Source of the DNA: Imbricaverruca yamaguchii
Lineage: Eukaryota; Arthropoda; Thecostraca; Neoverrucidae
DNA length: 64,000 nt
Assembly (NCBI GenBank): GCA_034440575.1
Contig: JAOTOL010001368.1
Span: 184,001 to 248,000 of the forward strand
Direction of reading: 5' to 3'
The translations under genes and the position numbers were made by a program. The notes below the pieces were generated by a model that saw nothing but the letters and a program-made list of their open reading frames with translations, was not told the DNA's origin and did no database searches. Within the stretch, counting starts at the first letter, position 1; every line of letters begins with the position of its first letter. Below are positions 9,906-56,956 of this stretch, one piece after another.

Positions 9906-12900
9906 ATGGACATACGAAGTTTCTTCGCGAAAAAGGTAAGTAAGGGTGGATGTAATTATGCATCAACAAACAGTTGATCGCGCTACTTACCTATGCAGCT
10001 AAATGAAAAACTACGTTTTTCCATTAGGCACTTTATGCCATGCCAACATTCACTCTTCACTGTTGCTATGCTGAACGATATGCCTGTATATACCTGTAGC
10101 GATGTATGTGTATACCGATATACCTGTTACCTGTTTCGTCACTTCGAATAATACTAATAATAATAGCAATAATAATAATTAGCATAATTTCTCCAAATTC
10201 ATAATTAGTGGCATCGTAGATTGAATTAAAATTAGGACATCACCACTATGTGAACATGTTGGTTGGAGCGCTTTCGATCCGTATTACGAATCGTCATCGG
10301 CAACACTCGGTACGGATTCACTCAGTGGTGATGTCCTAATTTTAATTGAATTATCATAATATTGTCAACTGCAGTTGCTTCATAGAAGTCCCTTCATTGA
10401 TGGATATTTATCACATGCTGCTATTCACAGTCCACCCTGGATAATCCATCCGCTCCTGCGCCTACACCTGCACCGTCTGCTCCTGCGTGTTTGCCTACGC
10501 CAACGCATCCTGTGCCAGAACCCACGTCTCCTTCTGCGCCAGCATCCGCTTCTTCAAGCAGCCCCTCTGACCTGCATACTGATGCTGAGGGAAAGATAGA
10601 GCTTGTCTTCGGCAAATCGGCAAACAGTGGGATATCGCCGGCAACTGCAGGTAATGTGAACAACTCCTTGCCGGTTTGATATGCATACCTACTTTTAATT
10701 TCTGTTTTGGTGACTTAACCCTATTACTGGCGGGCCTTACGAGGTTCAGTTTCTGGCGGGGGGCCTATTCGGCCCCCCTAAGATCTGGCGATCTATGCTT
10801 CCTAGCGCAAATCCGAAAATGGCGTTGGATAGCTCGTACCGTGAACTCTAGAAAGTATTTCGGTAATTTTGTACCTCAGGTCAATGGTTTGACCTCCAGA
10901 GGTCATCGACCATATAGAGGTTACGCAAAGTTTTTCGCCAATAACTTTTCACCTAATTCAGATAGAGACTTAAACTCAACGTCATCGTGTTCGCCTTGTT
11001 AAGAAGGTTCGAATGATATATAGTCTACCCTAGCCAGGTCAATTTTGACTGTTGAGCTTAGGTCACGTGACCTACGATGACCTAAAGTCACCGAAAGGGG
11101 TCAAGCTGCATATCATATGAAAGCTGGTGATAAAACAAACACAATGGCGTTGAGTTTGACGCTCTAGCTCAATGTGGCGGAGAGCAGTGGTCCAAAAACG
11201 GTTTTTGAGCCCTGGTGACCTCGGATGACCTCAGAAAGGGAAACCGTCAAATTTCACCCCGGGAATCTGTGAAAAGGTGGGAGTGAACATGATTCTGAAA
11301 GTTGTGAGCCGTTTTGATCATATTTGTGGCTTTGGCAGTGTCATTTTTATTTTTCCCATGTTATTCCAATTGGAGAGGTCACCTCGTCACCTGACGTCAG
11401 GTCAACGCTAGAGAAAAAAACCGAACTATATGTTATACATCTCTGTAGGGCCATGAAGTGTGGTAATTTTTAAATTGACCGGTGTAAAAGTGTGGGTGCG
11501 ATGGGGCTCCAAAGTTGAAATGAGGTGACCTCAGTTGGCCTGATCTGGTGACCTGACCTGACGTGACCCGGGGTTAAAATTTTGACACAACCTGTCAAAA
11601 GGACCAATAAAGAAAGTCAGAAGGTTTCAGGTCTTTATCGCCAGCCGTTCCGGAGAAACTAGCAAAAAACCTGAGGGAGGCCTTAAAGGCCCCCGCCAGC
11701 AGTAATAGGCTTAATGTGTTTCTGAATTCCATTACACCGAATGTAAATGTCTAATGTGCTATATCATCCAAAGTGAGGCAGTTAATTAATTTGGTCAAAT
11801 CCGATATTGCTTATTTTACTGCACATACCCCACTTATATGTTATTCGTACCAAGTACCAACACAAATGTCACACATTGCGATTAAGAGAGGTCTGTAGTA
11901 GTGTACATTTATCGTTCCTTAGGGGTTTAAACGTACATAAATGAAATAATGGGGTTTGCAGCTGATTGACTTGTGTAAGATCCTAGAAATGACATTAAGT
12001 TCATAACCTATTCTGCTTAAAGTTATCTAATCAGCCAGTGAAGCAAAGAAGCAATGGCCTTATAATGGAAGTAGTGTATCTGCACAGGTGGTATAGCTAA
12101 CTGATTTTTGGTTGTGTTGAGGACTTGAGGTCAATACAGGGGCGCAGCCAGGGGGGAGGGGCAATTGCCCCCCCCCGTTACGACCGATGTTTTTCTTTTT
12201 TACCATTGGAACTGCCCATCAGCAACAGTCTACCCCTCCCTTTAGCATTACCTTGCTCCCCCCTTAGGACAGTCCTGGCTGCGCCCCTGGGTCAATATCT
12301 CCATGAACATGAGAAGCATTACTTGTGGCACCTTTTTATAAATGAAGGTAATTCACACCTGCAAAGTGGTGCAATAAGACAGCTGTTTCAAACAATATAA
12401 ATGAATTGCAGGCAAAACAATCGACAGAACAACCCAGTGAAAAACATGTTGTGCATAAAAATATAATTGCTGTTGTTACCATCACACAGTCAATGATCAC
12501 AGCTGCTGGAATACCAAGACTCGCAATTTTTTTGTGAAAATAACGAGATAAATAATTGGTAATTAGTCGTATTTCCTGTTTTCAGTTCCACCATGCTCAT
12601 CGCCTTGCTGTTCCACGGTCCATCCCCACCAACCGACCGACACTGCCACGCTCTCAAAGACTGCGCGTGATCAGGGCGGACGAACGCGATCATTTTGTCC
12701 CGAATGGTACAATAATTATGCGTGGCTAAGCCTCTGCTTAGAGTCTGGAAAGGTTTTCTGTCATGTATGCCGGAGGCAGCACAAGCTCGGAAAGCTAACG
12801 ATGAGCAAAAACAAAGAGGCTGCGTATGTGGAAGATGGCTTCAACAATTGGAAGAAGGCGCAAGAGAGTTTCAAAACGCATGAAAACTCAATGTGTCACC

Positions 12901-14714
12901 ATGAGGCATGCACGAAAGAACTGAAAGAGAAACAGCAGACCATCTCTGCGCTTCTGTCTCAGCAGACCAGCGAGGAGCAGTCCCGGCGCAGAAAATGCCT
13001 GAAAAAGGTCATCGAGACTCTGGTATACTTGTTGCGACAAAACATTCCCATAAGGGGGAAACACGAAATGGACGGGAACCTCAGCCAACTCCTCCTCATC
13101 AGAAAGAAGGACGTGCCAGAGCTCAACAACTGGAATCACTACCTGTCTCCCGTGATCCAGAACGAGCTGATTCGTTCGATCGGCACGACACTTCTGCGCA
13201 ACATGCTGAAAGACATCCGAGAGGCAAAGTTCTTTGCTATTCTAGCAGACGAGGCCACTGACTTGTCACTCAAACAGCAGGTCAGCCTCTCCATACGTTG
13301 GGTGGACGCCAATCTGCAGATCAACGAGGATCCCGTGGAACTGATTCACACCGAGGTAACCACCGGTGAAGTACTTGCGGACACGCTTAAGGACGCACTG
13401 GTGCGTATGGAGCTGCCGCTGAGTCGCTGTCGCGGACAAGCCTACGATGGGGCTGCAAATATGCAGGGGCGAGTGAAAGGAGTGGCGGCGAGGATCAGCG
13501 AAGAGTGTCCATCAGCCCTGCATGTCCATTGTCTGGCACACTGTACAAATCTGGCGTTGCAGGAGGCAGCCAGGAAAAACAAGATGATTCGAAATGCCCT
13601 GGATATTACCAACGAGCTGACATCCTTTGTCAGAAACTCGCCGAAGACGGCCGCAGCACTCCGACGCGTGACGCTGTCCGCAGAGTCAGCTGGCGGCACT
13701 CTGCGGCCGTTGTGCCCCACGCGATGGACCTGCCGTACCGCGTCGCTGCGAAGCGTAGTGGATAACTACGAGCACGTGATGAGCACCCTGGAGGAAGTCA
13801 GTGCTGAGGCAAGTGACGATCATGGTCGAAAAGCAGGAGGAATGCTGGCGCTCATGGAGCAGTTCGATACGTTTATCGGGCTGCTCATTGCGATCGAGGT
13901 ATTCTCTCTAGCAGAGGACCTGTCGCGTGGCCTCCAGTCAGCGACAGCGACAGTGGGAAACACACAGGAGGCGGTGAAACGTGTGTGCGAGCGCTATGAG
14001 GGGATGCGCTCAACTGAGTCTTTCGACAGGATGTTCGAGAGAGCTGAAAGGTTGGCAGCGGCAGCAGGTGTGGATGGTCCCAAACTGCCTCGAAAGCGGA
14101 AAGTTCCCATGCGACTGGACGGCGGTGGACAGTACCACGACTCCACCGTGAAAGACCTACATCGACGCCAATTCTTCGAGATATTGGACACACTGACCAC
14201 TCAGCTCAAGGAAAGGTTCCTGCAACCGACGTTCCAGAAAGTGCGCGAGGTGGAGCGACTGTTGGAGGATGCGAGTGCGGGAAGGCACTTCACCGTCCCC
14301 GTCGCCGTAAAGGATCTGTATGGCGGCGATCTGGACCTTGCACGATTGGAAGTGCAGCTGCAAATGCTACCTGATGTGGTTGGAGACGGAGGAAAGAGCG
14401 TGCACCAAGTGATTCAGGCTCTCGTGGGGGCAAAGCAGTCGGGTGGTACAGTGTTCAGTAACATGATGAGCGAAGTGCTGACGCTGGTAAGGCTGTACCT
14501 TACTGTACCAGTAACAACGGCCACGGCAGAGCGCTCTTTCTCCTGTCTCCGACGCATCAAGTCGTATCTCCGCTCTACCATGGGTCAGGCCCGACTTAAC
14601 GCTGCGATGGTGTGCACTGTGCACCGTCAGCGCGTCGACGAGCTGGATGTGGATGCCATTGCCTCGGAGTTCTTCGCAGCAAATGATCGGCGTCGCTCGT
14701 TCTTCGGCGTGTAA
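9906..14714 (+). CDS. hAT-family transposase, TTF-finger (ZMYM1-like) type, three exons
   Basis: A cut-and-paste transposase or a gene descended from one. Exons by phase: 9906-9935 (MDIRSFFAKK, donor gtaagt), 10431-10650 and 12586-14714; they join as phase 0, then phase 1, and sum to 793 codons including the stop without interruption. Domains in order: a DIRSFF N-terminus typical of this group; a Pro/Ser/Ala linker (residues 11-84); a TTF-type zinc finger with WYNNYAWL and likely ligands C142, C145, H182 and H188; the RNase H-like core with LADEATD near residue 304 and YDGAANM near 369; an insertion with CPSALHVHC; and a C-terminal dimerisation region with TATAERSFSCLRRIKSYL near 727. I did not find the transposon's own terminal repeats, so an active element and a domesticated gene are both possible. 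The intact frame argues for recent activity or selection. Confidence 0.9.
10211..10350. repeat. Inverted repeat of about 23 bp in transposase intron 1
   Basis: The arm 'aattaaaattaggacatcac' near 10217 is mirrored by 'gtgatgtcctaattttaatt' near 10328. The spacer includes 'gagcgctttcgatccgtatt', which looks like a retroelement or MITE terminus. It would form a stem-loop in the pre-mRNA of intron 1. Confidence 0.65.
10719..11710. mobile_element. Non-autonomous piggyBac-like element, 992 bp
   Basis: Flanked by TTAA at 10715-10718 and 11711-11714. Its ends read 'ccctattactggcgggcc' on the left and, reverse-complemented, 'gcctattactgctggcggg' on the right. TTAA duplication plus inverted ends starting with a C/G-rich CCTATTA motif is the piggyBac signature. 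The interior is full of 'gaggtcacctc' and 'gacctgacgt'-like motifs and has no transposase frame. It lies wholly in intron 2 of the hAT gene. Confidence 0.78.
12137..12289. mobile_element. hAT-type MITE, 153 bp, exact 8-bp TSD
   Basis: Inverted ends 'caggggcgcagccagg' and 'cctggctgcgcccctg' are perfect reverse complements. They are flanked by identical ggtcaata at 12129-12136 and 12290-12297. It sits in intron 2 of the hAT transposase gene, about 300 bp before the third exon. Confidence 0.9.
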
Positions 14715-16995: not shown

Positions 16996-17068
16996 GGCGC
17001 CATGGCTTAGTTGGCTAAAGCGCCTGTCTAGTAAACAGGAGACCCCGAGTTCGAATCTCGGTGGTGCC
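16996..17068 (+). tRNA. tRNA-Thr (anticodon AGU), copy 1
   Basis: 73 nt with full cloverleaf: acceptor GGCGCCA pairs TGGTGCC, D-stem GCTT/AAGC, anticodon stem CCTGT/ACAGG around loop CTAGTAA, T-stem CCGAG/CTCGG. Box A is TGGCTTAGTTGG and box B GTTCGAATC. A run of five T follows directly as Pol III terminator. No intron, no encoded CCA. Confidence 0.93.
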
Positions 17069-26821: not shown

Positions 26822-26930
26822 CCGGGGGTCACAGTCGGACTCGGTAAATGCCGCCGGCTGTGAGATTCGAACCCACAATATTGCGATCAAAAGTCAGGCG
26901 TTTTACCAACTGAGCTACCGCGACCCCCAT
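26822..26930 (-). repeat. tRNA-derived SINE, minus strand
   Basis: On the minus strand 'gcggtagctcagttggtaaa' and 'gtgggttcgaatctcac' are clean A and B boxes with a near-tRNA anticodon arm. The 3' acceptor strand is replaced by SINE body 'agccggcggcatttaccgag', shared with 4735-4915 and 28485-28600. Not a functional tRNA. Confidence 0.7.
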
Positions 26931-27103: not shown

Positions 27104-30100
27104 TCAGCTAAACATCACATAGTCCTCGCCTTCTTGCAAGCCTAGACTGGCCAGGTTGGCCTCGAACTGACCACCCGTAATGTCCATTTTGACGCAGATA
27201 ACGAACGGCTTTTGAGCCTTGCTGAAGTGCAGGATGGGTACACGCGGTTTTGGCACAACGCTGCTGTTCTCGTATACGTAGACTCCCTGTCGAAGCTTGC
27301 GCTCGTCCACGTCGCAGAAGGCCAGAACCTGAGAGGAGACAGAGGCGCAAGTCAGCGGAGCTGCGTGGTCCCAGGCTACATCAGCATCAGTACCTGAGAA
27401 GAGAGGCACTGCGTGGTCCCAGGCTACATCAGCGTCAGAACCTGAGGAGAGAGGCACTGCGTGGTCAGCACCTGAGGAGAGAGGCACTGCGTGGTCCCGG
27501 GCTACATCAGCGTCAGTACCTGAGGAGAGAGGCACTGCGTGGTCAGAGCCTGAGGAGAGAGGCACTGTGTGATCCCCGGCTACATCAGCGTCAGTACCTG
27601 AGGAGAGAGGCACTGCGTGGTCAGGGGCTGAGGGAAGAGGCACTGTGTGATCCCCGGCTACATCAGCGTCAGTACCTGAGGAGAGAGGCACTGCGTGGTC
27701 AGTACCTGAGGGGAGAGGCACTGTGTGGTCCCGGACTACATCAGCGTCAGTACCCAAGGAGAGAGGAACTGTGTGGTCCCGGGCCTGAGGGGAGAGGCAC
27801 TGCGTGGTCCCGGGCTACATCAGCGTCAGTACCTGAAGAGAGAGGCACTGTGTGGTCCCGGGCTACATTAGCGTCAGTACCTGAGGAGAGAGGCACTGCG
27901 TGGTCAGCACCTGAGGAGAGAGGCACTGCGTGGTCAGCACCTGAGGGGAGAGGCACTGCGTGGTCCCGGGCTACATCAGCGTCAGTACCTGAAGAGAGAG
28001 GCACTGTGTGGTCCCGGGCTACATTAGCGTCAGTACCTGAAGAGAGAGGCACTGTGTGGTCCCGGGCTACATCAGCATCAGGACCCGAGGAGAGAGGCAC
28101 TGTGTGGTCCCGGGCTACATCAGCATCAGGACCCGAGGAGAGAGGCACTGTGTGGTCCCGGGCCTGAGGGGAGAGGCACTGCGTGGTCCCGGGCTACATT
28201 AGCGTCAGTACCTGAGGAGAGAGGCACTGTGTGATCCCCGGCTACATTAGCGTCAGTACCTGAGGAGAGAGGCACTGTGTGATCCCCGGCTACATCAGCG
28301 TCAGTACCTGAGGAGAGAGGCACTGCGTGGTCCCGGGCTACATCAGCATCAGGACCCGAGGAGAGAGGCACTGTGTGGTCCCGGGCTACATGAACGCGAA
28401 GCGAAGTGCGAATTACACACAGCGGCGTCGCTAATCCGCCTCCACACACATGGCCAGTACTCACATTGTGGGGGGGGGGGGTCTTTTACGACGCATTTAG
28501 CCGCTAGGTCATATAGCGTCGCCAACCTCTCACGCCGATTGGTCGCGGGTGGGCTCGGTAAATACCGTCGGTTGTGAGACTCGAGCCGGCAGTGCCTCAC
28601 CTTGTCGCGATGCCGCTGCGCCAGGCTGCGGCATCGCGTGTAAATGCCGTCGGTTGTGAGACTCGAGCCGGCGCTCCAGTGCCTCACCTTGTCGCGATGC
28701 CGCTGCGCCAGGCTGCGGCATCGCGTGTAAATGCCGTCGGTTGTGGGATTCGAGCCGGCGCTGCAGTGCTCACCTTGTCGCGATGCCGCTGCGCCAGGCT
28801 GCGGTACAGCCGCCGACCCTGCTTCCCGGCGTTCCAAATGGTGAAGCCCGGCCAGCAGTCCAGGTAGGCGGCGACGAGCCGCGCCAGCCGCAGCCGCCAG
28901 ATCGTGTCCCTGCAGCGACACGACATGTCACCACATGTCATGACATGGCACATGGCACCACACGGCACAACATGGCATGACAAGGCACGACGTGGCACGG
29001 CATGTCACATGTCACCGCATGGCGCAACATGGCATGACAAGGCACGATATGACACGACATGGCACATGACAATACATAGCACGACATGGCACAACATGGC
29101 ATGACAGGGCACGACATGGCACATATGAAGACATGGCACGACAGCAGGCTAGAGCCAATGGCAGCAGCAGCACGACATGTGACGACATGGCACATGGCAC
29201 GATGGCACGGCGTGTCACGGCGTGGCACGACAGCAGGCTGGAGCCAATGGACGTCAGGCAATATAATAGGCAATCTGCACTACACACAAAACTTCAATTT
29301 TGTTATTTTTTAATTTAGTTAGTTCGTGTTTAGTTTTATAACCATGTCGTGCAGCCTATTTGGTGAGTGCTGTATCAATACAAATCTGGAATCAAAGGAG
29401 CATTTTCAAACTTCACCAGAATTTAATATTTCTGCAGCTCGACATTTATTTCATGGAAAAAATGATACAATGACGATATATTATTCGAGAAGTACCCGAC
29501 GGCAGCGCGTAGCTAAGTAGCTAATGGTGCCACGTGCCTGACAGTGTAGTCACCGACACATTCGCATCCAGAATTGCTCGCAATTGCGCTATCATATTTC
29601 AGCGCTAAAGTATACGTGTTGCTTGTGTTGTGGTGGCTCACGGTACACTGTACGCACTATGACTGCCAATGATGCCGCCCGCACTGCCTCGCCGCCGGGC
29701 CGCGAGACTGGCAAGTGTGCTCCGAATGGCACGAGCGTTCAACCCCTTTGTACCCCTTTGTGCCCAAAGTTGACCACTCAAATAACTCGGCCATCCCTGT
29801 GCGTCCCTGAACTTAGATTGACCATACACCATACTCCTTCACCACAGTGATAAAATATTCGTGAAATAGGGTGGAATATACCACTGCCTGGGCGCTCAAG
29901 ACATCCTTTCGAAGGAAGCATTGACATCGTGTTTGTTGATGTGTGCTTATGGGGTCTCCGTGATTCATTTATAAAAGTATTTCGTGTGCAAGTATCATGC
30001 TGATGTTCCACATTACGAATTGTGATGCACAAACATCTAGATACACACTTCCGAGTACAGACATTATCTATGATGTGGTCTGCTAAACAATCAAATGTGC

Positions 30101-33100
30101 GATGTGGTCTGCTAAGGTTTCAAGAAATGAAACCATATATTAATTGGCATACTTCGAGGACAAATTACGACGTCCTACTATACCCACTTCGACATCTCAC
30201 ACCTAACGAAAAACCATTATTTTACCACTGCTTCATCGTCTCAGTGATTTTTGACGTGTTGGGTTCGTCGCCTCCACTCCATCGGCTCCACTCCACAATG
30301 AGGCGAGGTTCAGGATGCCGCCGACATGTGACGATGCCAGGTAGTGTCAGCACCAGCGGCTACTACCTTCGGCACCACCTCACGCATTACCGCTGATAAC
30401 CGAACCACTGCCAGACTGTGTACGATCACTGTCACCGCACCACGGTCGGGACCTTTATACGACCACCACATCATGTGTGGATCTGTCTCCTGCACGGCGA
30501 CCGACTGTCACTACACCACGGTCAGGACCTGTACACGACCACCACATCATGTGTGGATCTGTCTCCTGCACAGCTGACTGTCACTGCACCACAGTCAGGA
30601 CCTGTACACGACCACCACAACCTTTGTGGATTTTTCTTCTCACCACACTGACACCACAGTCAGGACCTGTACACGACCACCACATCATGTGTGGATCTGT
30701 CTCCTGCACGGCGACCGACTGTCACTACACCACGGTCAGGACCTGTACACGACCACCACATCATGTGTGGATCTGTCTCCTGCACGGCTGACTGTCACTA
30801 CACCACAGTCAGGACCTGTACACGCCCACCACATCGTGTGTGGATCTGTCTCCTGCACGGCGACTGACTCGTGTATGGAGAAGGTGGCCGCGTCGGGGTG
30901 GTACCGGTACACCAGCACCTGCTGGTCCACCCGGCGGACGGTACCGGCCAGGTCCAGGTGCCGGTAGAAGAAGATGAGGTCCTCCGGCGTGCCAGCTCCC
31001 GTCTCGTCAAACCCACCGACCCTGCAGACAGACGTTACCGGTCAGGTCAGCACCCGTCCCGTCAAATCCATCAACCCTGCAGACATGTCACGGGTCAGGT
31101 CAGCACCCGTCCCGTCAAATCCATCAACCCTGCAGACAGACGTTACCGGTCAGGTCAGCACCCGTCTCGTCAAACCCACCGACCCACGGGTCAGGTCAGC
31201 ACTCACCCAGTCAAACCCACCGACCCTGCAGACGTATGGCACCCAGTCAAACCCAGGTCAGAACCCACCCAATCAAACCCACGGGTCAGGTCAGCACCCG
31301 TCCCGTCAAATCCATCAACCCTGCAGACAGACGTTACCGGTCAGGTCAGAACTCACACCGTCAAACCCACCGACCCACGGGTCAGGTCAGCACCCACCCA
31401 GTCAAACCCACCGACCCTGCAGACAAACGTCATGGGTCAGGCTAAACCGAGTCAGAGTTCCAGTCGCATATCAAAGGTCAAATGTTCGACATAAAAGATC
31501 AAGAGTTTGAATGCCAAAGGCCATCACTAGACATCAAAGGCTAACATTGAGATTAGTGCTCAACATGGGTGTCTAAGGTCAAACTTCACGTCTTAGAGAG
31601 CCGACGTTCGATTTTACAAATAAAGTTATTGACGTCAGGTGCCAGAGGTGAAATGTCATCAGTTAAATGCCAGAGGTACAATACACTCAGTCGAATTCCA
31701 GTCAAAATGTACCCAGTAATGCCAGATATTATGTAGGAAGGCCGGCAGGGTACGTTTGCTATCTGTATTAAGTCCTGCAATTATTCAGCACAGTGCCAGG
31801 AGCCGGGCAAAAGCGAAATGCTAGACTACATATCAGGTCAGATCAAATGTCCGGCTACATCATCTAACAGGTATCAGTTCACAAACCGCAGGTTATGCAA
31901 GGACAAATATGCCCGGTCAGGTCAGGTCATCTCACATCACACGGATCGCATCAGCAGACGAGACAGCTCACCTGTCGTACACCTGTCTGCTGCAGTACCA
32001 GGTGGGCATGATGACGGTGGGTCCGTGGGCAGTCAGCACCTGCAGGCTCAGCTGGCTCTGGGTCAGCTGGTTACACCAGCGGGTGTACCTCTCTGTGGAG
32101 CCGGCTGGGTCTCGCACGAACCTACCTCCCACGATCTGCAGCACGGGTACGTGTACATGTACATAGGTACAGGTACAGGGGCATAGGTTAATGAGTACAG
32201 GCACAGGTGTACTGATGTGTGGACGGTGTGGTTGGTTGATTACCTGTGGTTAGGGGCGCATTGCCAGATGGTGTGACATGTTGTTCTGAAGCGTAGAGTG
32301 GGTGGAAATGCATTTCCATTATCGACCCCTTCATTCACAGAGAAGTAGCCGCCACTCACGCTTGGTTCATATTGACTGGGTGAATATGATGGTGCACGAT
32401 GGAGAAATTAAACTCTAAATCCAGTTCACGTTTGCTGCCATTACAACGTTTTGACACGTCGTCTGCATGAATAAACAAGACACGTATTTCAAGAAAACAA
32501 CATTAGTAACAGTAGTTGTCAATGGGGAGCGGGAACCATTCGTATCGAGAACCATTATTATGAGTGCCCTGCTATTACGGCAACACTCTTGGGCAAGGCT
32601 GTTGCACACATTCATATTAGGCAGATGCTGCAACTGTCTGATAGCACCTCCCCCTCCACACTGTTGGTCACACGACCATCTGACATTTCGACTTTGAACA
32701 ACACGAAAAAACCGGCGAAAATAAACAGAAAAGGCCGATGTTGAACATCACAATGTTTTTCCCACAAATATGCTTCCATATGTCCTGACATTGTTGCACA
32801 GAGTGAACAAATACTATCAACAACTCAACATTCCCGGCAGCGGCACACCTCCTCGAGACAGCTCAGCGTCGCTACCATCCCCCACTGGCAACTGCACCAG
32901 TGCCGACGACCCACGTGACTGCCCCGCGCCGCCACCCTCTCCAACCCCACCCGCGGGCGGGGGTAGGTGTGGGGGGGGCGACAGGTGCCGCGTCGCAGGT
33001 TGAACAGGATACCCTAACCGACGGGTGGCGCGGAGACGTACCGCGTTAGGATCGGCCAGCGCCGCCGCGTGCTGACACCGCACGCGGTCCGGCAGCATCT

Positions 33101-35745
33101 CGTCATCCTGACGTCACACAGGTCAAGGTCACACCGACACCGCACCCGGTCCGGCAGCATCTCGTCATCCTGACGTCACAGAGGTCAAGGTCACACCGAC
33201 ACCGCACGCGGTCCGGCAGCATCTCGTCATCCTGACGTCACAGAGGTCAAGGTCACACCGACACTGCACGCGGTCCGGCAGCATCTCGTCATCCTGACGT
33301 CACAAAGGTCAAGGTCACACCGACACCGCACGCGGTCCGGCAGCATCTCGTCATCCTGACGTCACACAGGTCAAGGTCACACCGACACCGCACGCGGTCC
33401 GGCAGCATCTCGTCATCCTGACGTCACAAAGGTCAAGGTCACACTGACCTGACCACACGGGTCAACCAGCAGCCAGGTACTCGGATATTTGGGCCTAGAG
33501 GCGCATCGACTGCTTCGGTCATACAGCACAGCCAGATACTCAGGTCTCCAGAAACGGCAAACAAGTGCAAAACGTCGCACGTCAGATCAAGGTGGCCTGC
33601 GACAGAAACACGTCTGGCGGCCTTCAGCTAGCCCTCGATGGACGCCGGCCTCGGCAGGGAAGTAGATCCAACACAAAACTGACGCGTACCTTTCCTTCTC
33701 TAAGCTACCGAATGGTGGATGAAGATGAAATAGATGCATGGCTAAGTAACAGAAGACACTGCTGCAAAACTTAGGAAAGTTGTGATTTACTTCAGTAAAT
33801 CTTTTTAGCTAAAGATTGTGTGAACGTCATGTTTATAAACATCATTAAGACGATGTGACCCTTCATTTTCATTGGAAATGCTTGTTTTTCATTTGCATGG
33901 AAAATAATGCAAACTATGGGTGAGGTAGGTGATACATAAAGAAGAATATTTTATTTTTATTTAAACTAGCCTGACTTAACCTAACTTAACCTCGTTTTTC
34001 ATGAGAATATATAATAATATGGCACTTAACGTAATTAGTTGCATCAGCTGAAATAATTCCGGTGCACCAGTGTGTGACACAAAGAGATATTAGGACATAC
34101 TTCCAAGAGCTTTCACCTGATGGCTGATGCACTATCTGGGCTTTATGGTCCATCGACAAACCTTTGGCTCACACAGAGCTCAATTCAACGTTTTACAATA
34201 TGAATGTATTGCTTACGATATGCCAGCCAGACATGCTCAACTTAAAATGTGCCATGCGCCGATGGCAAGGCAAACAGCAATAGAAACTAAACCATGCACA
34301 AGACTAATACCGTTGTGCTACGCAGACATACCGAATCCAGAAAGCAGAGGAAGCGTCCAGTACTTTGCTCCACAGCGCGGTTCTTGGCGTACCCCACTGA
34401 GAATTAGGAGACAAGCCGACGGTTAAGTGCTGACTCCGCAGGTATCACTGAATAACTACTTGGAGTAGTCTGGGGGTAAGTTGCCCATCTCACAATCGAA
34501 ATATTGTGGGTTCGAGTCTCACCTGTCGCTACTCTTCGGTTGGTTATTTGGGCTTACGGGCGCATCGACTGCGTTGGGCATACAGCGCCCATTGTGCCGC
34601 TACTCTTCACCCGCAGCCAATCGGCGTGAGAGATTGCAGACGCTGCATGACTCAACGGTCGACGTGCCGTAAAACCAATAACCACCACGGAATAATTACT
34701 TAAACTGGATGTTAAGTGGCCGGATTCAAGACAAAGCATTGGAACAGATCGTGGTGGAGGAAGAATGCTACTTCACCAAGGATAATGTGTTCATACGCCA
34801 AACACAGATTTCGCCCACAACTGATAAATTATGTGAATGAGTGCTTACAGAAGTCAGTTAATTTGGGCCGAAAACCACGCCAAACAGGCTTGAAATTGAC
34901 ATCTTCCTGTATTTTTTTTTTGTCCTCTAGAACATCATCCTCTCCGGAATACTATTCATGTCCATGCTGGGACGCTGAATGTCGCCGTTTGCCAATCACT
35001 TTAAATGCTCCATTTGCTATACAAAAATGCCAAAGGCACAAAGCACAAGGGAACTTCTGTCACAAAGAGAGTTGAAACATGTCGCAGCGAGCAAGGAAAC
35101 TATCGTCTCCGAGCTGGACGACGCAAATGTTCACTTTCGGCATCAAACGCGGCAAAATACACACCCACCGGCTCCACCAATACCGCCCACCGCCGCCACC
35201 AACACTGCCCACCGGCTCCACCAATACCGCCCACGGCCGCCACCAACACTGCCCATCGCCAACACTACCCACCTTCGCCACCGACACTGCCCATCGCCAA
35301 CACTACCCACCGCCTTCACCAACACTGCCCACCGCCGCCACCAACACTGCCCACCGCCACCACCAACACTGCCCACCGCCGCCACCAACACTACCCACCG
35401 CCACCGCCAACACTGCCCACCGCCGCCGCCAACACTGCCCACAGCCGCCAACACTGCCCACCTCCGCCGCCAACACTACCCACCGCCACCACCAACACTG
35501 CCCACCGCCGCCAACACTGCCCACCACCGCCCACCTCCGCGCGCCGGCTGTCCGCCGGAGACCAGCAGGCGGTAGCCGCTCCGCTCCAGGTCGGCCCTGT
35601 GCCGCTCCAGCAGCGCGGCCGACTGGTCGCTGCAGCCGTCCAGGTAGACGGACAGCTCGGCCGTCAGCTGGTGCTGCTGCTGCACCACGGAGCGCAGACA
35701 CGCCGCCAGCCACCGCTCGGCGTCGTGCACCGGCAGCACGATACT
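27104..35745 (-). CDS. B3GNTL1: Queuosine-tRNA galactosyltransferase (B3GNTL1/QTGAL ortholog), seven exons read
   Basis: GT-A fold family 2 glycosyltransferase; the vertebrate ortholog has been assigned as the enzyme that adds galactose to queuosine in tRNA-Tyr. Exons in transcription order: 35535-35745, 34332-34396, 33042-33107, 31972-32135, 30869-31021, 28774-28909, 27104-27328. All boundaries are GT-AG, phases agree throughout, and together they give 339 codons plus stop. Visible motifs: [12 protein letters not shown] nucleotide-binding strand; [22 protein letters not shown], the DxD-type metal site, split between exons 2 and 3; [62 protein letters not shown]; and the terminal [19 protein letters not shown]. 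The true start is not certain: exon 1 as listed needs an upstream exon or an in-frame ATG at 35832. Minisatellites abut six of the twelve internal junctions. Divergent neighbour: LIG1. Confidence 0.93.
27329..28395 (-). repeat. Minisatellite of 48-bp units built on the last-exon acceptor
   Basis: About twenty units, many 48 bp, each containing 'tgcctctctcctcaggtact' on the minus strand. This resembles the real acceptor of the last B3GNTL1 exon ('tctcctctcag' then GTTCTG). Because 48 is a multiple of three, a stop-free frame repeats [16 protein letters not shown] and runs into the exon. Splicing to a decoy copy in the exon's phase would read GTA CTG ACG CTG ATG TAG and stop. Confidence 0.88.
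28395..28485. other. Unique intron sequence with a G10 run
   Basis: Short non-repetitive stretch between the 48-bp array and a SINE; contains a run of G at about 28470-28480. Confidence 0.5.
28485..28600 (-). repeat. SINE 3' half, merged into exon-derived repeats
   Basis: Minus strand carries 'accaatcggcgtgagaggtt' and 'gctatatgacctagcggcta', the same body as the SINE at 4735-4915. Its head-proximal part ('ctcacaaccgacggtattta') is itself repeated in the adjoining array to 28760. Confidence 0.7.
28575..28795 (-). repeat. Three tandem copies of a B3GNTL1 exon end plus donor
   Basis: On the minus strand the exon end 'cagcggcatcgcgacaag' followed by a 'gtgag' donor occurs at 28774 (real) and twice more near 28690 and 28610. 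The copies are separated by SINE-derived sequence, giving units of about 80-90 bp. The copies therefore carry an exon fragment, a working-looking 5' splice site and SINE sequence together. Confidence 0.85.
28918..29240. repeat. Short-unit minisatellite abutting a B3GNTL1 acceptor
   Basis: Irregular 10-15 bp units of 'cacgacatggcac' type. The array starts about 9 bp from the acceptor of the 28774-28909 exon and replaces most of its polypyrimidine tract. Confidence 0.85.
29240..30470. other. Intron sequence, includes a decayed SINE
   Basis: Within B3GNTL1 intron. About 29630-29770 resembles the second SINE family (body 'gccgcccgcac' and 'gccgggccgcgag') seen at 35906 and 46590. Nothing else recognised. 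Confidence 0.45.
30470..30868 (-). repeat. About 70-bp tandem repeat seeded at a B3GNTL1 donor
   Basis: Five copies of 'gtcgccgtgcaggagacag' or close variants on the minus strand, near 30490, 30565, 30710, 30780 and 30855. The last is the sequence directly after the real donor (GA then gtcagtcgcc). Units also contain 'acatgatgtggtggtcgtgt'. Confidence 0.85.
31022..31440 (-). repeat. Tandem repeat carrying a B3GNTL1 acceptor and exon start
   Basis: Six copies of the acceptor motif 'gtctgcagggt' (near 31020, 31073, 31127, 31223, 31318 and 31415). Most continue as 'tgatggatttgacggga', a diverged copy of the real exon start 'cggtgggtttgacgaga'. Only the copy at 31021 leads into the complete exon. 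Confidence 0.87.
31440..31970. other. B3GNTL1 intron, no feature
   Basis: Unique intronic sequence with scattered 'ggtcaaatg' motifs. No gene seen. Confidence 0.5.
32136..33040. other. B3GNTL1 intron, no gene
   Basis: Contains short 'gtacaggtaca'-type repeats at 32140-32215 and a C/G-rich stretch at 32920-32985. No coding signal. Confidence 0.5.
33108..33450 (-). repeat. 62-bp minisatellite copying a splice acceptor and exon start
   Basis: Exact period of 62 bp. With the real copy at 33042-33107, there are six copies of 'gtgacgtcaggatgacgaga' continuing through 'tgctgccggaccgcgtgcgg' on the minus strand. That is the acceptor plus the first 33 nt of exon 3, encoding [11 protein letters not shown] with part of the metal-binding motif. 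Only the most 3' copy continues into the rest of the exon and a donor. Confidence 0.92.
33450..34330. other. B3GNTL1 intron, no gene
   Basis: A short frame at 33565-33774 has no domain. 'ggcgcatcgactg' at 33500 and 34560 is the reverse complement of a repeat tail that recurs across the window. Confidence 0.45.
34475..34690 (+). repeat. tRNA-derived SINE
   Basis: Head 'gagtagtctgggggtaagtt' and 'gtgggttcgagtctcacctg' with a tRNA-like arm between them. An internal insertion with 'ggcttacgggcgcatcgact' follows, then the body 'caatcggcgtgagagattgc' and tail 'gtaaaaccaataaccacc'. Same family as 43878-44010. Confidence 0.75.
35145..35534 (-). repeat. GC-rich minisatellite starting at the exon 1 donor of B3GNTL1
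   Basis: The minus strand runs 'gtgggcggtggtgggcagtg' directly from the donor GT at 35534 and continues as about twenty units of 'gtgggcagtgttggcgg' type, 15-21 bp each. Many units repeat a GTGGGC donor-like start. Confidence 0.88.
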
Positions 35746-45800: not shown

Positions 45801-48800
45801 CCACGCCCTGACATGTTTTTCGATCGGCATTAACCCTTTGTGATATTATTTGCATTAATCCCTTCCATTTTGCTGTTGAAGTATCTCGATGCTGCGTGCT
45901 CACAGTGTTTCGTTCCGTTCACCATGCTTGGCGGATTCCTGTTGCAGGCGCGAGTAGCCCCAAGGCCTCGACCGGTATTTTCGGGCTAAAAAATAACCGA
46001 GAGTCGCACGGACCCGGGAAGGTCGACTGCAACGAGTACGACCCGCTCAAGAAGAACTACCACCCTGTCGACGATGCGGTGTGGAAGGAGGGCGATAAGT
46101 GAGTTGGTCCGCCTCGGGGGCACGCGTGGGGCGCCGCGTCACGGCCACGTTATGGCTGCGTCACGGCCACGTCATGGCTGGGCCACAGCCACCTCATGAC
46201 TTCGTCATGGCCACGTCATTCTGACGTTACGGCCACGTCATTCTGACGTCATGACTTCGTCACGGCCACGGCATGGCTGTGTCACGGTTACGTCATGGCT
46301 GCTTCACGGTCACGTCATGCTCACGTCGTGGCTGCCGTTCACAGCACAGGTGTGGATCAACGTTTGGTTGTTAGCGCCCCAGCAATTATGCACAGTGTCC
46401 TCGCGGAAGCACTGTATCCGGACGTCGCCCGAATGCTGATTTCTTCGTGACAAATTTGTGCACGAGGTCAACTTTTTTGGGAATGGTAATGGTAATCAGT
46501 GTTTCACTCTGAGGTGTGAGGTTCACCGCAGGATGCCTGGCTCTGATTCAGAGTTGATCCTTCTCTATAGCTGATTCTGTTTATTTGTTTATTGGGTGCT
46601 TCACGACACACTTTATGCACATTCACGGCTAATGGCGCCGCCCACACTGTTTCGACGGTGGGCCGCGGGATTGGGAGATGTCCCGAGCGGCGCGAGTGTC
46701 GAGCCCGGGACCTTTGGTGCCCAGAGCCCAACACCTTAACCACTCGAACATCCCAGCCACTTCCCCAGCTATCCCCGCCCCTCCACAGCTCTGACTCAGG
46801 CCGATGACGTCACCGCTCACCTGCAGGGTGCCGTACCTGGCACTGGCGCGCACGTTCGAGCTGGTGGAGGTAACGAGCGCACGGCTCAAGATGATCGACA
46901 TCCTGGCCAACTACCTGAGGTCGGTGGTGGCGCTGAGTCCGCACGACCTGCTGCCCTCTGTCTACCTCTGCCTCAACCAGCTGGCGCCCGCCTACCACGG
47001 TCAGTCCGGTGCTGCTGTCGCCGCCGGCCGCGGCTGGCTTTCCATCGACGTGTTGGAGCCTGCATGTGTTGTCTAGATATTGTAGTTTGCTCACCGTAAG
47101 TCCACGATAACCATTAGTCTGCTTGCCTTTGATTTACACATTTGGGGAGTTCACTTGTTTTTTGTTTTTTTTTTTTGGTGCACGCGTACACAGGCCGCAG
47201 TATAGGTGCTGTAAAAAAATTATTTGGAAGTGTTCGAAATGAGTCGGTTATTTGCTTGCTGTCATTATTAATAGCTAAGTGTGGTGACGGAGCTCATCCA
47301 ATGTGTTGGGCCGTCTGGATAGTGAATAGTTTTGGGCACGAGGCGAGGTCGTGTCGTCTTGGGCGCCACCGGACCGGAGGACCCGTTTGTAGTTCGAGCG
47401 TGTCTGTCTCCCTGCGCCTGACCGTGACGCAGCCCCAGCTGACGTCTCCCCATTCTGCCTCTGACCTGCATCCACTCCCCCTGATCCGCCCCTGACACCG
47501 CCTCTGACCCTCAGGCCTGGAGCTCCACTCCCCTTGACCCGTCCCTGACGCCGCCTCTGACCGTCAGGCCTGGAGCTGGGTATCGGCGACGGCGCCATCA
47601 CGCGCGCCATCGCCTCCGCCACCGGCCGCACGGTGGACAAAATCCGCGCCGACGTGGCCGAACGCGGCGACCTTGGCCTGGTGGCCGAGAGCAGCCGGAG
47701 CCGCCAGCGGGTCATGTTCCAGCCGGCCCCGCTCACCGTGGCCGGCGTGTTCCGCACACTCACCGACATCGCGCAGATGACCGGCCAGGCGGTGAGATGG
47801 CGCTGCGGTCGTGGCTGGGCGTACAGGTGGCGCCACAGTTGTAGCGCTAAGGTGGTAAAATAATTGACCATGTGGCCTGGAAATTCATAGTTAATGGAAT
47901 TGTGCTATTTCATCCTTGTCTCAGGTTTTTACCATTTTGCTACATGTGTGGGCAGTCATTATACACACTACTGCTAAAAATGTAAAATGCATGCGACTGA
48001 AGTGAAAGGCATTCCGCTTTTTTAATCCTTAAGTGGCGATCCTTTATTTTCTTCCAGGCTTTCACTATTCCCAAGCAATTTCTTTCTTCATCCACACAGT
48101 TAATGGTGAGGTAATTTTATGACACCGTGTGATGGTCGCAGTGTATAGGTGGTGCCTCAGTGGTGGTAATAGTGTCGAGGTGGCGCTGCTGTCATGGTCG
48201 CAGTGTATAGGTGGTGCCACAGTGGTGGTCGTAGTGTCGAGGTGGCGCTGCTGTCGTAGTCTGTGTAGAGGCAGTGCTACAGTTGTGGGAAGGTGGCGCT
48301 GCTGTCGTGGTCGGTGTAGAGGCAGTGCTACAGTTTTGGGAAGGTGGCGCTGCTGTCGTAGTATGTAGAGGCAGTGCTACAGTTGTGGGAAGGTGGCGCT
48401 GCTGTCGTAGTCTGTGTAGAGGCAGTGGTACAGTTGTGGGAAGGTGGCGCAAAAGTCTGGGTGCCGTGGCTGGGTCATAGATGGGGCTACATTCGCCGTC
48501 CGGTCTGGTCTAGGCTTGGTTAAAGGAGCTGTTACAATTTTGGTCTGGGCTAAGTTCAGAGAGGTGCTATAGTTTCTGTCAGGGCTGAGTTAGCAGTGCA
48601 GTTGGCTTCTTTGTATATTGGGTGGTTTTCGACGCGCCTTATGCATGATCGCGGCTAATGACGCTGTCCACACTTTCGCCGGTGGGCAGAGGGATTGGGA
48701 AATGTCCAGCGTGATGTGAGTGTTGAACCCGGAACCGTTAATGCCCAGGGGTCTACACACCGACAACATGGCAATCCACGTCCCAGTAGTGCAGTTGGCG

Positions 48801-51800
48801 TGCGTGGTTTAGAGGTGATGCTGCAGCTGTGGTCAAAGCCAGAAAGCCATCCTTTAGGCACAAGGTTATTCAGTTCAACTATTTATAAGTCATGATTATG
48901 CTGAGCACTTAAGCTGTGTAAAAATGTCCACAGGGGTTGGTTCCTACTGCCATAATTTAAGGGCCATACTATGCTATTCAGGGAGCATTGTTCCATGTCA
49001 ATATTTCTGATGTTCTAGGAGCTCGGAGCCCTTCATTGTGAGTTATCATTTAGGGCCACTCCAGGTGAAACATTGCATACTGAAGCTCATCAGAATCGTC
49101 CGCCATGTTCATTGACGAATATTAACGATACATTGGTAAATTGTGGGTCTGGAAAATCTTGTGAATGCGACCGGGAATGGGCAGGTTTATGGATGAGTAA
49201 AGAAACCTTGATAGTTAGGAAACAGCGCTGGGGCATTGAGAATTCCGAACGTATTAGCGAAATGGCGGCGTTTTATCCGCTGATCATTAAACAGTGTTCT
49301 TGAATTTGCTTATCGTAGAGTGGATGGTAGCGGGCAAAGACGTCAAAGCCGTTGCTGACGTCAAAACAATTTGGCAATATGATTGGAAAATGTGCGTAAA
49401 ATATTATATTCACGGATGAACAGCACATCTTGCAAAGTTGTGGTGGCACGTATGCCAGGAAACAAGTGTGATGAAAAAGTACCTTCACTTGTACATTTGT
49501 AATAGTACACTCGCGTGAACCGTGAAGTTTAATGGAAATTGATTCAGCATGTCAAAGCTGCTGTCTGTGTCTGTGTGTGGTCAAAGCAAATTCCTGGTGC
49601 CAGTCGTTCTACGCATTAATTTAGGAATTATGCGACATGGTGATGGGGACCGGACACACAGATGCTAACGCCCAAGTGTCCTCACCGGCATGATGTTATG
49701 TAGGTGATGAGTCCCTGACAGACACATTCTAACGTAGAAGTGTCATCACCAACATGATGTTTCGCAGGTGATGACCAAGAAGGTTGGGAAGATGCAGGCC
49801 CTGATGGTGGCGTGTCGCCACTCGGAGACCCGGTTTATAGTCCGCTCCCTGAGCGGGAAACTTCGCATCGGTCTGGCCGAGCAGTCGGTCCTCCAGGTAA
49901 CCATGGCAAAAACTCACCATGGCAACGACTGGCGAAAACGTGTGGCGGATGTGATCGACGCGGATGGCTGTATCATATTTTAACTAAGCTTGTTAGAAGA
50001 GCAGAGGATGCAGTGGGCTGGAGAATAACACTCAAAGCACGTGCTACTTTGCATTCTGACAGTCGGTGGGAAAATATTCCATGGACGTTTGCAGTTGTAT
50101 TATAAATAGTATTATTATGCATAAGGCTTCAGGTTCAATGCCGTTCACTTGTTCAGTGAACAACTCAGTATCCCAGCCAACTGTATGTTCTGCACCCATG
50201 TTCTAGCTTTTGACCAAATGTGGTGGGTCCAGGAAACAAACCGCACTGCTCGGGACCAGCCACGAATATGTCGCGGCACATTTGTCAAAAATTGATATAA
50301 TTTAAGCTGATACACAATAGCTGGCGTTTATGGCTGATGCGAAGTCCGGTGGTTGATCTGATCCCTGTGGCTGATTAGTGTTGGATGCTGCGTGATTCAC
50401 ATGGTGTGTTGTGTTGACCTGTGTCGTGATGCTCCGTGCCATGATTTGATACTGTGTGCCGTGATGTGATTGTGTTGTGTTGTGATGCTATGTGCTGTGA
50501 TGTGATTATCTATGTTGTGCTGTGATACTATGTGCTGTGATGTGATTATCTGTGTTGTGCTGTGATACTATGTGCCATGATGTGATAATCTGTGTTGTGC
50601 TGTGATACCACGTGCCGTCATCTGATTATCTGTGTTGTGCTATGATACTATGTGCCGTGATGTGATTGTCTGTGTTGTGCTGTGATACTATGTGCCGTGA
50701 TGTGATTGTCTGTGTTGTGCTGTGATACCACGTGCCGTCATCTGATTATCTGTGTTGTGCTGTGATACTATGTGCCGTGATGTGATTGTCTGTGTTGTGC
50801 TGTGATACTATGTGCCGTGATGTGATTGTCTGTGTTGTGCTATCATGCTATGTGCCGTGACGTGATATTATGTGCCGTGATGTGACGATCCGTGATGCGA
50901 TGTGCTGATCCTTCATCTGATATAATACTCCATGATCTGATGTCATACTCTGTCATGCTGTAATGTGATGTGTTATTCCTTGTGACGTGATATTCCGTGT
51001 TACCATGTGATATCCCATGACGTGACATAATGTGTCATGTTGTAATATAATATTGTATGCCATGGTGTGATATGTCGTGATATGTTGTAATATTCCGTGA
51101 TATGTGATGTTCCGTGATATGTGATATTTCGTGATGTGACGTCATGCTGTGTCATTCTGTGATGTAATAATATATTAATATTAAGCGCTATTATGTAATA
51201 TTCCGTGAAGAGATGTTCTATGTGCCATGACGAGATCTGATGTGATATCCCACGACGTGATATCGTGCTCTGTGTCATGTTGTGATGCGATGTGATATTC
51301 TATGCCAGCATATGACATGCGATGGTGCGCCTGGTGTCGCTAGCCGCGGCGGCGAGGGAGGCAGAGTTGCACGTGCCTCCCAAACACGACTGAAAGCTCC
51401 CCGTTGTTTGATGAAACAGCCCAAAGCTCTCTGGACTCTACAGCTTCTGACATGAACAACAGGAAAACAAATTTTAGGGGAAAAATTTTAGTTTGAGGGA
51501 ATTTTTCCTCCAAATAGACGCCAGAGTATACATCCAACTCTTCATTTTATGTCAGTTATGGGCGGAAAATGACCCTAGATGTCGACGCGCCCTTAAACTC
51601 CAATCCACCACCACCACCACCACTCTTCATTTTATGCATGTATTTCCAGCAAGCTTAACAATTTATGACTACCCCATCTTGTTTCGTTTTTTTTTAAATG
51701 TAACCTTTGGCGATGGCATATCGGCTTCAAAATTGCGGCGACCGACCGGAATCCGGTCAACACGGAGACCATTGTGTCACTGTTGCAGTCGTGTTATCGC

Positions 51801-54800
51801 ACGAGCCATGCTTTTCAGTTAATGAGCTGTGTGATGTCGGGAATCCCGGGAAATAAGAGTCGTTACTGACCAGACCACGTTAATTCCGACCGAAGTGGTA
51901 CAACAGCGGCATGCTTGGTGTAGACTGGTGTTGTCTGGCCCGTGTCCTGTGTTATTCGAAATGGTCCAACAGTAGCATGTTTGGTGTACACTGGTCTTCT
52001 TTCCCTTGGCACCTTTCGACTGTACACTTGTCTTTCTTCCCTTGGTAGCATTGGCCTGTGTCTTTGTTCACACTACGGTAATGTTGGCAGAATTATCTAC
52101 ACTGTCCTGCCCCGATCTACCCTGGATATTTCGTCTCACCGGGTCTCTGATCCCCAAACCTGAAACATTAAGCTTTAGCATGCCCTGTTTCACACGTTAC
52201 GTCATAGGCGGACTCTTTCTCTGTGCGTATGAAGTTCCTCGTTTTAATACTATGACAATATGCATATATTTTGGGGTGGTAGCCTTGTACGGTTCTGCCC
52301 CAGAACTAAGTCGTCTTACATGGCCATGGTTTCGTCTGAACGTGGATGGATGGGTGCCAGAATGCGGGAGCTGAGCGTAGAATAAGCGGGTGCTTGCGAA
52401 CTTTGACATTGAGGTCGATGCAAGGGAGGCGACCCGAAAGCTCGTAGTGCAGGTTGAAAAAATCCTGATGTATACAACAAGCACCTGATCACACTTTCAA
52501 GTGGCACGCTGCGATAAATATTTCCCGAGACGCTATCAGAATTGTTGTTTTTGTCCAACATATCAGCAGTCCTCACCTTGGCAACGGCCCCCAAGTCAGG
52601 GGCTGTGCCTTGCCGCGATGATATTCTGTGCCGCATCGCCCCGCGATTTGATATTCCGTGCTGTGTTGTGTGTGGTATTGCGTTGTGATGTGATATGTGA
52701 TGTGATAGTATGTACCGTGCTGTGGTGTGATATGTGTCATGCTGTGCTGTGACGTGATAATATACGCCATGGTGTGATGTAATAGTATGTACTGTGTCTC
52801 TCTGTTGTGCGATGTTTATGTGCCGTGCCTCGCTGTAGTGTGATGTTTATGTGCCGTGCCTCGCTGTAGTGTGATGTTTATGTGCCGTGCCTCGCTGTAG
52901 TGTGATGTTTATGTACCGCGCCTCGCTGTAGTGTGATGTTTATGTGCCGTGCCTCGCTGTAGTGTGATGTAATATGAGCCGTCCCGCGAAAATGTTAGCA
53001 TACGACCTTCCTGAATTCTTTATGCCGTCCAGAACGTTGCTTTTTCCGGGAAATGAGCTTTCTCTTTTTCTCGCCGAAGGACTTAACGATGTGGTTGGAC
53101 AGCGAACCAATGCAAATGATATAATTCCGGTATTTCGACATTCAAAGAATTCGCGATTCCGGCAATCATTTGTCGTCACCGATGCCAACCTGGTCAAATT
53201 CTCGTTTTTCAAAAGGCCTTTGTTCGGTTGCCAACAAGTGTCCACAAATGAATGCCTGTTGCAGTGCTGTATAACTGTGGGAGTAAGGTGTATGTGGACC
53301 TGAATTGTTCAGTTCTCCGATACTGTATTCCCAATAAGGTTCCTGAAAAGACGCACATGAACACGAAGCATATAATAAAATTAAAGGCTTTAAACAAAAA
53401 TTTGCGTCATGCACACGATAGTTGGAAAATATACATATATAGATCCAGGAAATCATAGTCCAGGAAATTGAACGTCAAGTGATCTGACGTGCCATGACGT
53501 GCCGTTACGTGCCGTTACGTGCCGTTACGTGACATGACGTGCCGTGCCGTGCCGTGACGTGCCATGACGTGATGTGACGTGCCGTTACGTGTCATGACGT
53601 GACGTGGCGTGACATGCCGTGACGTGCCGTGCCATGACGTGCCGTTACGTGACGTGGCGTGACATGCCGTGATATGACATGCCGTGCCGTGACGCACCTC
53701 GTCGACAGGCGCTGGCGCAGGCGTGTGTGCAGACGCCGCCGGAGCAGCCGCGGCCGGCGCGGCAGCTGGACGCCACGCGCGGCCTGTCCGCCGACAAGGC
53801 CAAGGCGCGCCTGGACCGCGCCGCGCTCACGCTCAAGACTACCTACTGCGAGTGTCCCTGCTACGACGAGATCGTGCCGGCGCTGCTGCGGCACGGCGTC
53901 GACGCGCTGCCCGACCACTGCCGCATCCGCACCGGCGTGCCGCTCAAGCCGATGCTGGCGCACCCGACCAAGGGCGTGTCCGAGGTGCTGGCCAGGTTCG
54001 AGGGCACCGCCTTCACCTGCGAGTACAAGTACGACGGCGAGCGCGCGCAGATCCACCTGCTCGACGACGGCTCGGTGCGCGTCTACAGCCGCAACCAGGA
54101 GGACAACACCAGCAAGTATCCGGACATTGTCGCGCGCTTCCGCGAGTGTCTGACGGACAGTGTGAGCTCGTGCATCGTGGACTCGGAGGCGGTGGCGTGG
54201 GACGTGCAGCGGCAGCAGATACTACCGTTCCAGGTGCTGAGCACGCGCAAGCGGAAGGACGCGGCCGAGGCCGACATCAAGGTGCAGGTGTGCGTGTTCG
54301 CGTTCGACCTGCTCATGCTGAACGGCGAGTCGCTGGTGACGAAGCCGTTCCGAGCGCGTCGCGAACAGCTGCGCGCCAACTTCGCCGAGGTCGACGGCCA
54401 GTTCGCGTTCGCGCGCAGCAACGACGGCACGGACGTGGAGGAGATCGCCGAGTTCCTCGACGAGAGCGTGCGCGGCAACTGCGAGGGCCTCATGGTGAAG
54501 ACGCTCGACCGCGACGCCACCTACGAGATCGCCAAGCGCTCGCGCAACTGGCTGAAGCTGAAGAAGGACTACCTGGACGGCGTGGGCGACACCATCGACG
54601 TGGTGGTGATCGGCGGCTTCCTCGGCAAGGGCAAGCGCTCCGGCAAGTACGGCGGCTTCCTGCTCGCCTGCTACGACCCCGACAACGAGGAGTTCCAGAG
54701 CATCTGCAAGATCGGCACCGGCTTCTCCGACGACGACCTGGAGCGTCACTCGACGCTGCTGGCGCAGCACAAGATCGACTCGGCCAAGTCCTACTACCGC

Positions 54801-56940: not shown

Positions 56941-56956
56941 CAAATGTTCCCTTAGG

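Follow-up and report, generated by a model that had tools for sequence, protein, structure and literature searches.

Why should the minisatellites of a single gene gather at its splice junctions, each built from a unit of its own? The question is raised by a B3GNTL1 gene on the minus strand of a 64,000-nucleotide stretch of the Imbricaverruca yamaguchii genome (the window), which belongs to an assembly whose 1430 contigs total 767,457,503 bases. An initial annotation made from the letters alone described tandem arrays at six of the twelve internal exon-intron boundaries of this gene, together with a seventh array copying an exon end and its donor. Two readings were offered: a process that repeatedly duplicates splice-junction DNA, or selection that tolerates arrays only there.

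The gene was rebuilt as seven recognised exons with 12 internal junctions and an open spliced frame of 339 amino acids. Over its full length, the protein is 75% identical to the orthologue of Pollicipes pollicipes, 74% to that of Amphibalanus and 60% to that of Daphnia. The best relatives are those of barnacles and, judged by sequence, the source genome is of the barnacle lineage. In the annotation of several animals, the B3GNTL1 label stands for queuosine-tRNA galactosyltransferase. An exon with the start codon was not found in the rebuild, and E1 denotes the first exon recognised. The exons are as follows:

35535..35745, minus strand: exon E1, the first recognised, from the open spliced frame and the match to barnacle orthologues
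34332..34396, minus strand: exon E2, small, with arrays at neither end
33042..33107, minus strand: exon E3 of the rebuilt model
31972..32135, minus strand: exon E4, with arrays at neither end
30869..31021, minus strand: exon E5 of the rebuilt model
28774..28909, minus strand: exon E6 of the rebuilt model
27104..27328, minus strand: exon E7 of the rebuilt model, with the stop codon

Seven merged minisatellite arrays lie in this gene. Each has one edge within 34 bp of a junction, so that 7 of the 12 internal junctions are occupied and five are free (the two ends of E2 and of E4, and the donor of E3):

35164..35531, minus strand: array at the E1 donor, period 22/63, beginning 3 bp inside the intron (TRF)
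33074..33448, minus strand: array at the E3 acceptor, a 62-bp unit present six times, with 34 bp of exon and the acceptor inside it (TRF)
30993..31441, minus strand: array at the E5 acceptor, 41/55/96-bp units, 29 bp of exon included (TRF)
30428..30869, minus strand: array at the E5 donor, 73/76-bp units, starting at the donor itself (TRF)
28919..29143, minus strand: array at the E6 acceptor, 10/57-bp units, stopping 9 bp short of the exon
28558..28804, minus strand: array at the E6 donor, an 87-bp unit holding 31 bp of exon end and the donor (TRF)
27361..28391, minus strand: array near the E7 acceptor, 30/48/78-bp units, 32 bp off the exon (TRF)

The initial description of the gene thus stands: its count of boundaries agrees with the seven junctions found here, its unit lengths agree broadly with those of TRF, and arrays that include a splice site plus part of an exon, as it described for several junctions, are those at the E3 acceptor, the E5 acceptor and the E6 donor (29-34 bp of exon DNA). 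In the E3-acceptor array, the AG is kept in 5 of 5 upstream copies. The E7 array also contains acceptor-like motifs; its comparison with the true junction gave a score of 25, where 300 shuffles reached up to 26, and is not significant. Part of this array (27107-27814, minus strand) is an open frame continuing in frame into exon E7, and its units of 30 and 48 bp are multiples of three. By eye, the intronic half of the E6-donor unit (28558-28804) resembles a tRNA-derived stretch that is also present near 26840 and 34480.

To judge whether so many arrays at junctions exceed chance, each intron's arrays were placed at random within their own intron, with protrusion into exons of up to 60 bp allowed. 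A null barring such protrusion overstates the effect, as the observed arrays do protrude, and the fair null was used instead. In B3GNTL1, seven arrays have an edge within 40 bp of a junction against 1.71 expected (p = 5e-5), three within 20 bp against 0.87 (p = 0.039) and three within 10 bp against 0.45 (p = 0.0066).

The second gene considered lies downstream in the window, on the plus strand. It is LIG1-like, a name assigned from the human sequence, has the ligase domains and was rebuilt with 8 introns and a frame that is open throughout. Its arrays are:

46133..46327, plus strand: array 34 bp past the donor of exon 45948-46098
47471..47577, plus strand: array covering the acceptor of exon 47568-47791, with 10 bp of exon in a 53-bp unit
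48128..48450, plus strand: array 336 bp past the donor at 47792, excluded from the count of junction arrays
49639..49774, plus strand: array covering the acceptor of exon 49768-49896, with 7 bp of exon
53485..53694, plus strand: array stopping 14 bp short of the acceptor of exon 53709-55070

Within 40 bp, 4 of the 16 LIG1 junctions have an array edge, against 0.98 expected (p = 0.0063). The exon bases in the two acceptor-covering arrays (10 and 7 bp) could be microhomology instead. The excluded array at 48128..48450 aligns with the intron flanking the donor at a score of 42, the maximum of 300 shuffles being 23. The last exon listed, 53709-55070 on the plus strand, holds the catalytic middle and C-terminal ligase domains together in 1.36 kb, and the N-terminal part is spread over several shorter exons.

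Three other regions of the window were recorded alongside these genes. Between 16577 and 23443, five tRNA-Thr-like genes (at 16996, 19124, 20250, 22298 and 23370) are set among arrays of a common unit of about 30 bp, CCCCAGCCGTGTATTGTTGTTGGTTCCCCA, and the region looks like a composite block repeated several times. At 12567-14711 on the plus strand, an apparently uninterrupted open frame of 715 amino acids with a hAT dimerisation domain and DUF4371 is a hAT-type transposase gene. At 56873-58471, also on the plus strand, a single open frame with an astacin peptidase domain is followed by a long array of 31/62-bp units (58652-59354).

Genes outside the window were sampled through the CCT chaperonins, a family (PF00118) that was chosen before any arrays in it had been inspected. 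The search gave 66 matches, of which 62 were used. Splice sites were inferred from the continuity of the profile and from splice scores, the matrices for which are approximations. Thirty-five of 48 neighbouring exon pairs were kept, with contig C89 excluded as a second haplotype; nine pairs were dropped for gaps or overlaps in the profile and four for poor splice sites or fit. Among the dropped places, at least two (on C1246 and C1012) have arrays overlapping an exon end, and a third such array, on C912, is uncertain because the profile match may extend beyond the exon.

The initial annotation had suggested measuring array edges against splice sites with a randomised control, and the excess it anticipated is present in these genes. 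In the 43 introns of LIG1 and the CCT genes, an array edge falls within 20 bp of 12 of the 86 junctions, against 2.82 expected (p = 5e-5), and within 40 bp of 15, against 5.57 (p = 1e-4). The CCT genes alone give 9 of 70 against 2.33 at 20 bp (p = 0.00025) and, at 10 bp, 3 of 70 against 1.19, which is not significant (p = 0.11). The 21 better-determined CCT introns give a weaker result (4 of 42 against 1.17 at 20 bp; p = 0.019). With all genes taken together, the figures at 20 bp are 15 of 98 junctions against 3.69 expected (p = 5e-5). The enrichment survives the omission of any one gene, the lowest outcome being 9 against 2.43 expected.

This excess is confined to the immediate surroundings of the junction. 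Across LIG1 and the CCT genes, the density of edges per junction is 0.081 and 0.058 in the two 20-bp intervals flanking the junction and 0.006-0.014 per 20 bp beyond 80 bp. Pseudo-junctions placed 100, 150 and 200 bp into the introns collected 1, 1 and 0 edges within 20 bp, against 3.2, 2.9 and 3.4 expected. The arrays themselves cover 16% of the first 20 bp of introns, 26% at 50-100 bp and 8% at 800-2000 bp.

A smaller sample came from class I tRNA-synthetase genes, where five introns, representing part of that family's 26 matches with one intron dropped for a poor acceptor, had an array (period at least 9, score at least 60) at none of 10 junctions. On one of these contigs, L062, a (TG)n run of about 148 units at 1685-1977 begins about 70 bp past a candidate donor of a tRNA-synthetase exon. 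In total, 9 of 11 gene stretches have an array at one junction or more, and the two tRNA-synthetase contigs have none. Minisatellites of unrelated sequence, apparently founded locally, are thus recurrently associated with splice junctions in this barnacle-lineage genome.

What the arrays share is their location. None of the 253 pairwise comparisons among the 23 junction arrays showed similar units. Two were compared with the whole genome in a search that skipped very common words, namely the E3 array and, for E7, the first 400 bp; each matched its own place and no other. This upholds the earlier remark that the position rather than the sequence is common to the junctions. A dispersed repeat family is rejected for the arrays tested on the same two counts. 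The sampled introns contain 50 arrays, 27 of which lie elsewhere in introns, so the suggestion that arrays are tolerated only at junctions does not hold. With B3GNTL1 included, junction arrays are longer than interior ones (median 234 versus 117 bp) and richer in GC (0.61 versus 0.51), with a similar purity (83 versus 82%).

The nearest published counterpart is found in amphioxus. In two reports, "mirages" are described as tandem repeats lying over either exon-intron boundary, variable in length and apparently harmless to splicing, in Adh3, troponin C, the globins BflGb6 and BflGb9, and PGBD5 (PMC3087553, PMC3902484); the PGBD5 and troponin C cases were added by the second report (PMC3902484), and haplotypes of the BflGb6 mirage are given as having 6 and 3 copies. 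The resemblance noticed in the initial annotation is real: the spanning of either boundary, the range of units, the presence of AG or GT in many copies and the difference in length between haplotypes are common to both systems. The amphioxus repeats are further characterised by somatic instability.

Taken feature by feature, the barnacle arrays compare as follows. The boundary is spanned in 12 of the 23 junction arrays, which take in the splice site and 3 bp or more of the exon (at least 10 bp in 9 of the 23), and overlaps of less than about 10 bp could be microhomology. Both kinds of boundary are involved, with five of these 12 arrays at donors and seven at acceptors. Amphioxus units are about 10-160 bp long in several imperfect copies, and the 12 arrays have periods of 20-96 bp, likewise in several imperfect copies. 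The GT or AG is kept in 36 of the 39 repeat copies found in them, and 19 of the 39 score at least as high as the authentic splice site by the approximate matrix. The other 11 junction arrays have no exon DNA beyond about 1 bp, and the term mirage therefore fits about half. Of the acceptor-side arrays lacking exon DNA, five of seven end at a distance of 9-18 bp from the exon, immediately outside the 3' splice signal.

A difference in length between haplotypes is seen in a single pair of contigs, C1012 and C89, both of which contain the same CCT gene, presumably that of the zeta subunit. The sequences on either side of the array align at 97% (over 374 and 816 bp) and collinear pieces downstream at 93-95%, and the two contigs are taken as haplotypes of one gene on this sequence likeness. 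The unit of the array combines 23 bp from the end of the exon with the donor and some 40 bp of the intron. It is present in 8.3 copies (553 bp) in one contig and in 148.4 copies (9.4 kb) in the other, the longer form sitting on a small contig of 45.7 kb. In the long form, the GT is kept in 142 of 142 inner copies (those at least 72% identical to the probe), and 69 of the 142 score at least as high as the authentic donor. Together with the authentic donor, the long form thus has 143 similar 5' splice sites. Five other arrays in the two contigs differ little (165/165, 385/413, 317/235, 523/547 and 210/211 bp). As one of them (523 versus 547 bp) also overlaps an exon end, extreme variation in length is not a rule.

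The best explanation of these observations is probably that they are minisatellites of the mirage type, that is, tandem repeats that start at exon-intron junctions. In LIG1 and in the CCT genes sampled, array edges are concentrated several-fold around junctions, at distances of up to about 20 bp, and the units at different places are unrelated. Since about half of the junction arrays hold exon DNA together with the splice site, the founding duplication spanned or touched the junction. Short tandem duplications may arise more often, or persist longer, in the GC-rich flanks of exons than in the interior of introns. A duplication at a junction would be harmless if splicing keeps to the exon-most copy (the first donor, or the acceptor that comes last), since any further copies would then be part of the intron, while copies lying wholly within an exon would be purged. 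In B3GNTL1, using any of the 10 alternative splice-site copies examined would introduce a premature stop, and a productive message is therefore expected from the exon-most copy. If C1012 and C89 are indeed haplotypes, slippage or unequal exchange could afterwards alter the number of copies, up to 148 in one allele. The open spliced frames of B3GNTL1 and LIG1 suggest that regular splicing may be undisturbed by the arrays.

Within this explanation, the excess at exon edges may come from preferential birth of arrays there or from mere tolerance or retention there. When 40-bp probes centred on junctions were examined, 6 of 45 donors and 6 of 45 acceptors were duplicated nearby, compared with 162 of 900 random points in introns, which is no excess. 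The proposal that junction DNA itself is duplicated more than other intron DNA is unsupported by this test. The 19 arrays with a purity of 90% or more, which are presumably the youngest, show no bias, with 2 at junctions against 1.27 expected; the bias is present in arrays below 85% purity (n = 34), with 9 against 2.03. The missing bias in the purest arrays speaks against a simple bias of birth, albeit with small numbers, and the probe and purity results together fit retention or tolerance at least as well. The process put forward in the initial annotation, which would preferentially duplicate junction DNA, is accordingly not proven. It is a tentative idea that exon edges are hot spots for the birth of tandem duplications in barnacles, for instance through the making and repair of germ-line breaks at exon flanks. 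Were that so, a considerable fraction of introns would harbour minisatellites derived from their own splice sites, and copy number would turn over fast enough for one allele to offer a single exon 143 similar 5' splice sites and still give the right mRNA.

The alternative that survives best, although we regard it as rather doubtful, dispenses with any bias of birth. Duplications would arise evenly across genes, those inside exons would be purged, and those near junctions would be clipped at the splice signals or pinned to them, leaving an accumulation of edges there. The probe counts and the purest arrays are as this would predict, as are the five of seven exon-free acceptor-side arrays that end 9-18 bp before the exon and the abundance of arrays in intron interiors (27 of 50). 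However, the null that already allows up to 60 bp of exon protrusion expects 2.8 edges where 12 are observed, and arrays cover 26% of intron sequence lying 50-100 bp away from the exon but 8% at a distance of 800-2000 bp. Moreover, exon DNA in 12 of 23 arrays argues that these were founded at the junction and not clipped there.

Base composition could provide a quite different cause if minisatellites form in GC-rich DNA and the ends of introns next to exons are GC-rich. Unmasked intron GC is indeed 0.60 in the 20 bp nearest the exon and declines to 0.44 at a distance of 800-2000 bp, and the higher median GC of junction arrays (0.61 versus 0.51) is of the kind expected, but weighting the null by GC, as calibrated on interior edges, lifts the expectation only from 1.43 to 1.82, and the gradient itself could result from old arrays. 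With 12 edges observed against 1.82 expected, GC content is rejected as the whole cause, and composition is in general an improbable explanation.

More improbable still is a role in splicing for which the arrays would be retained, for example by supplying redundant splice sites or through the regulated use of inner copies. The retention of GT or AG in 36 of 39 copies and the 19 of 39 copies scoring at or above the authentic site would suit such a role. Nevertheless, every one of the 10 inner B3GNTL1 copies tested leads to a premature stop, unit lengths have no clear bias towards multiples of three (5 of 12 by hand count), and the retention of the dinucleotides is near that predicted from the identity of the copies (about 32 of 39, worked by hand). 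An artefact of assembly or annotation, or chance, is scarcely credible: the CCT splice sites come from profile matches and splice scores and not from RNA, and the 148-copy array sits on a small 45.7-kb contig, but the B3GNTL1 and LIG1 models are open throughout, errors in splice sites would be expected mostly to dilute the enrichment, and the pseudo-junction control is negative.

Returning to arrays of the mirage type, the sequence evidence indicates that the barnacle junction arrays are best filed with those of amphioxus. Among the open-licence papers surveyed, cases of this type were found in amphioxus only and none in barnacles, and the words "tandem" and "minisatellite" are absent from the main text of the P. 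pollicipes and B. improvisus genome papers. Compared with amphioxus, where single cases are described, the barnacle host is an arthropod and junctions are affected in 9 of 11 gene stretches; about half of its junction arrays abut the splice signal without any exon; and its CCT pair, with 8 versus 148 copies, is more extreme than the 6 versus 3 described for BflGb6. Two further systems share some of these features. In cases of intron gain by tandem duplication (vertebrate ATP2A1 and potato RdRp; PMC4974935), an extra copy near splice signals is likewise hidden by splicing, but a new intron is created, whereas the barnacle arrays would lengthen an intron at one end. In Caenorhabditis elegans, CeRep25B (PMC4039745) is likewise an intronic minisatellite linked with regions of (alternative) splicing, but it is one dispersed sequence family, unlike the unrelated units of the barnacle arrays (0 of 253 pairs similar).

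What is new is the occurrence in an arthropod lineage, the count of affected junctions and a junction excess that has been quantified. The mirages found in print are single genes of one chordate lineage. Their occurrence in an arthropod, with a measured junction excess and a negative control, suggests a convergent or widespread behaviour of gene DNA. Three questions become testable as a result: the place of birth of minisatellites, the harmless presence of an unstable repeat on a splice site, and the choice that the spliceosome makes when many sites are similar. For the last of these, the natural 8- and 148-copy forms of the CCT gene are ready material. The junction arrays also bear on the lengthening of introns and on intron gain.
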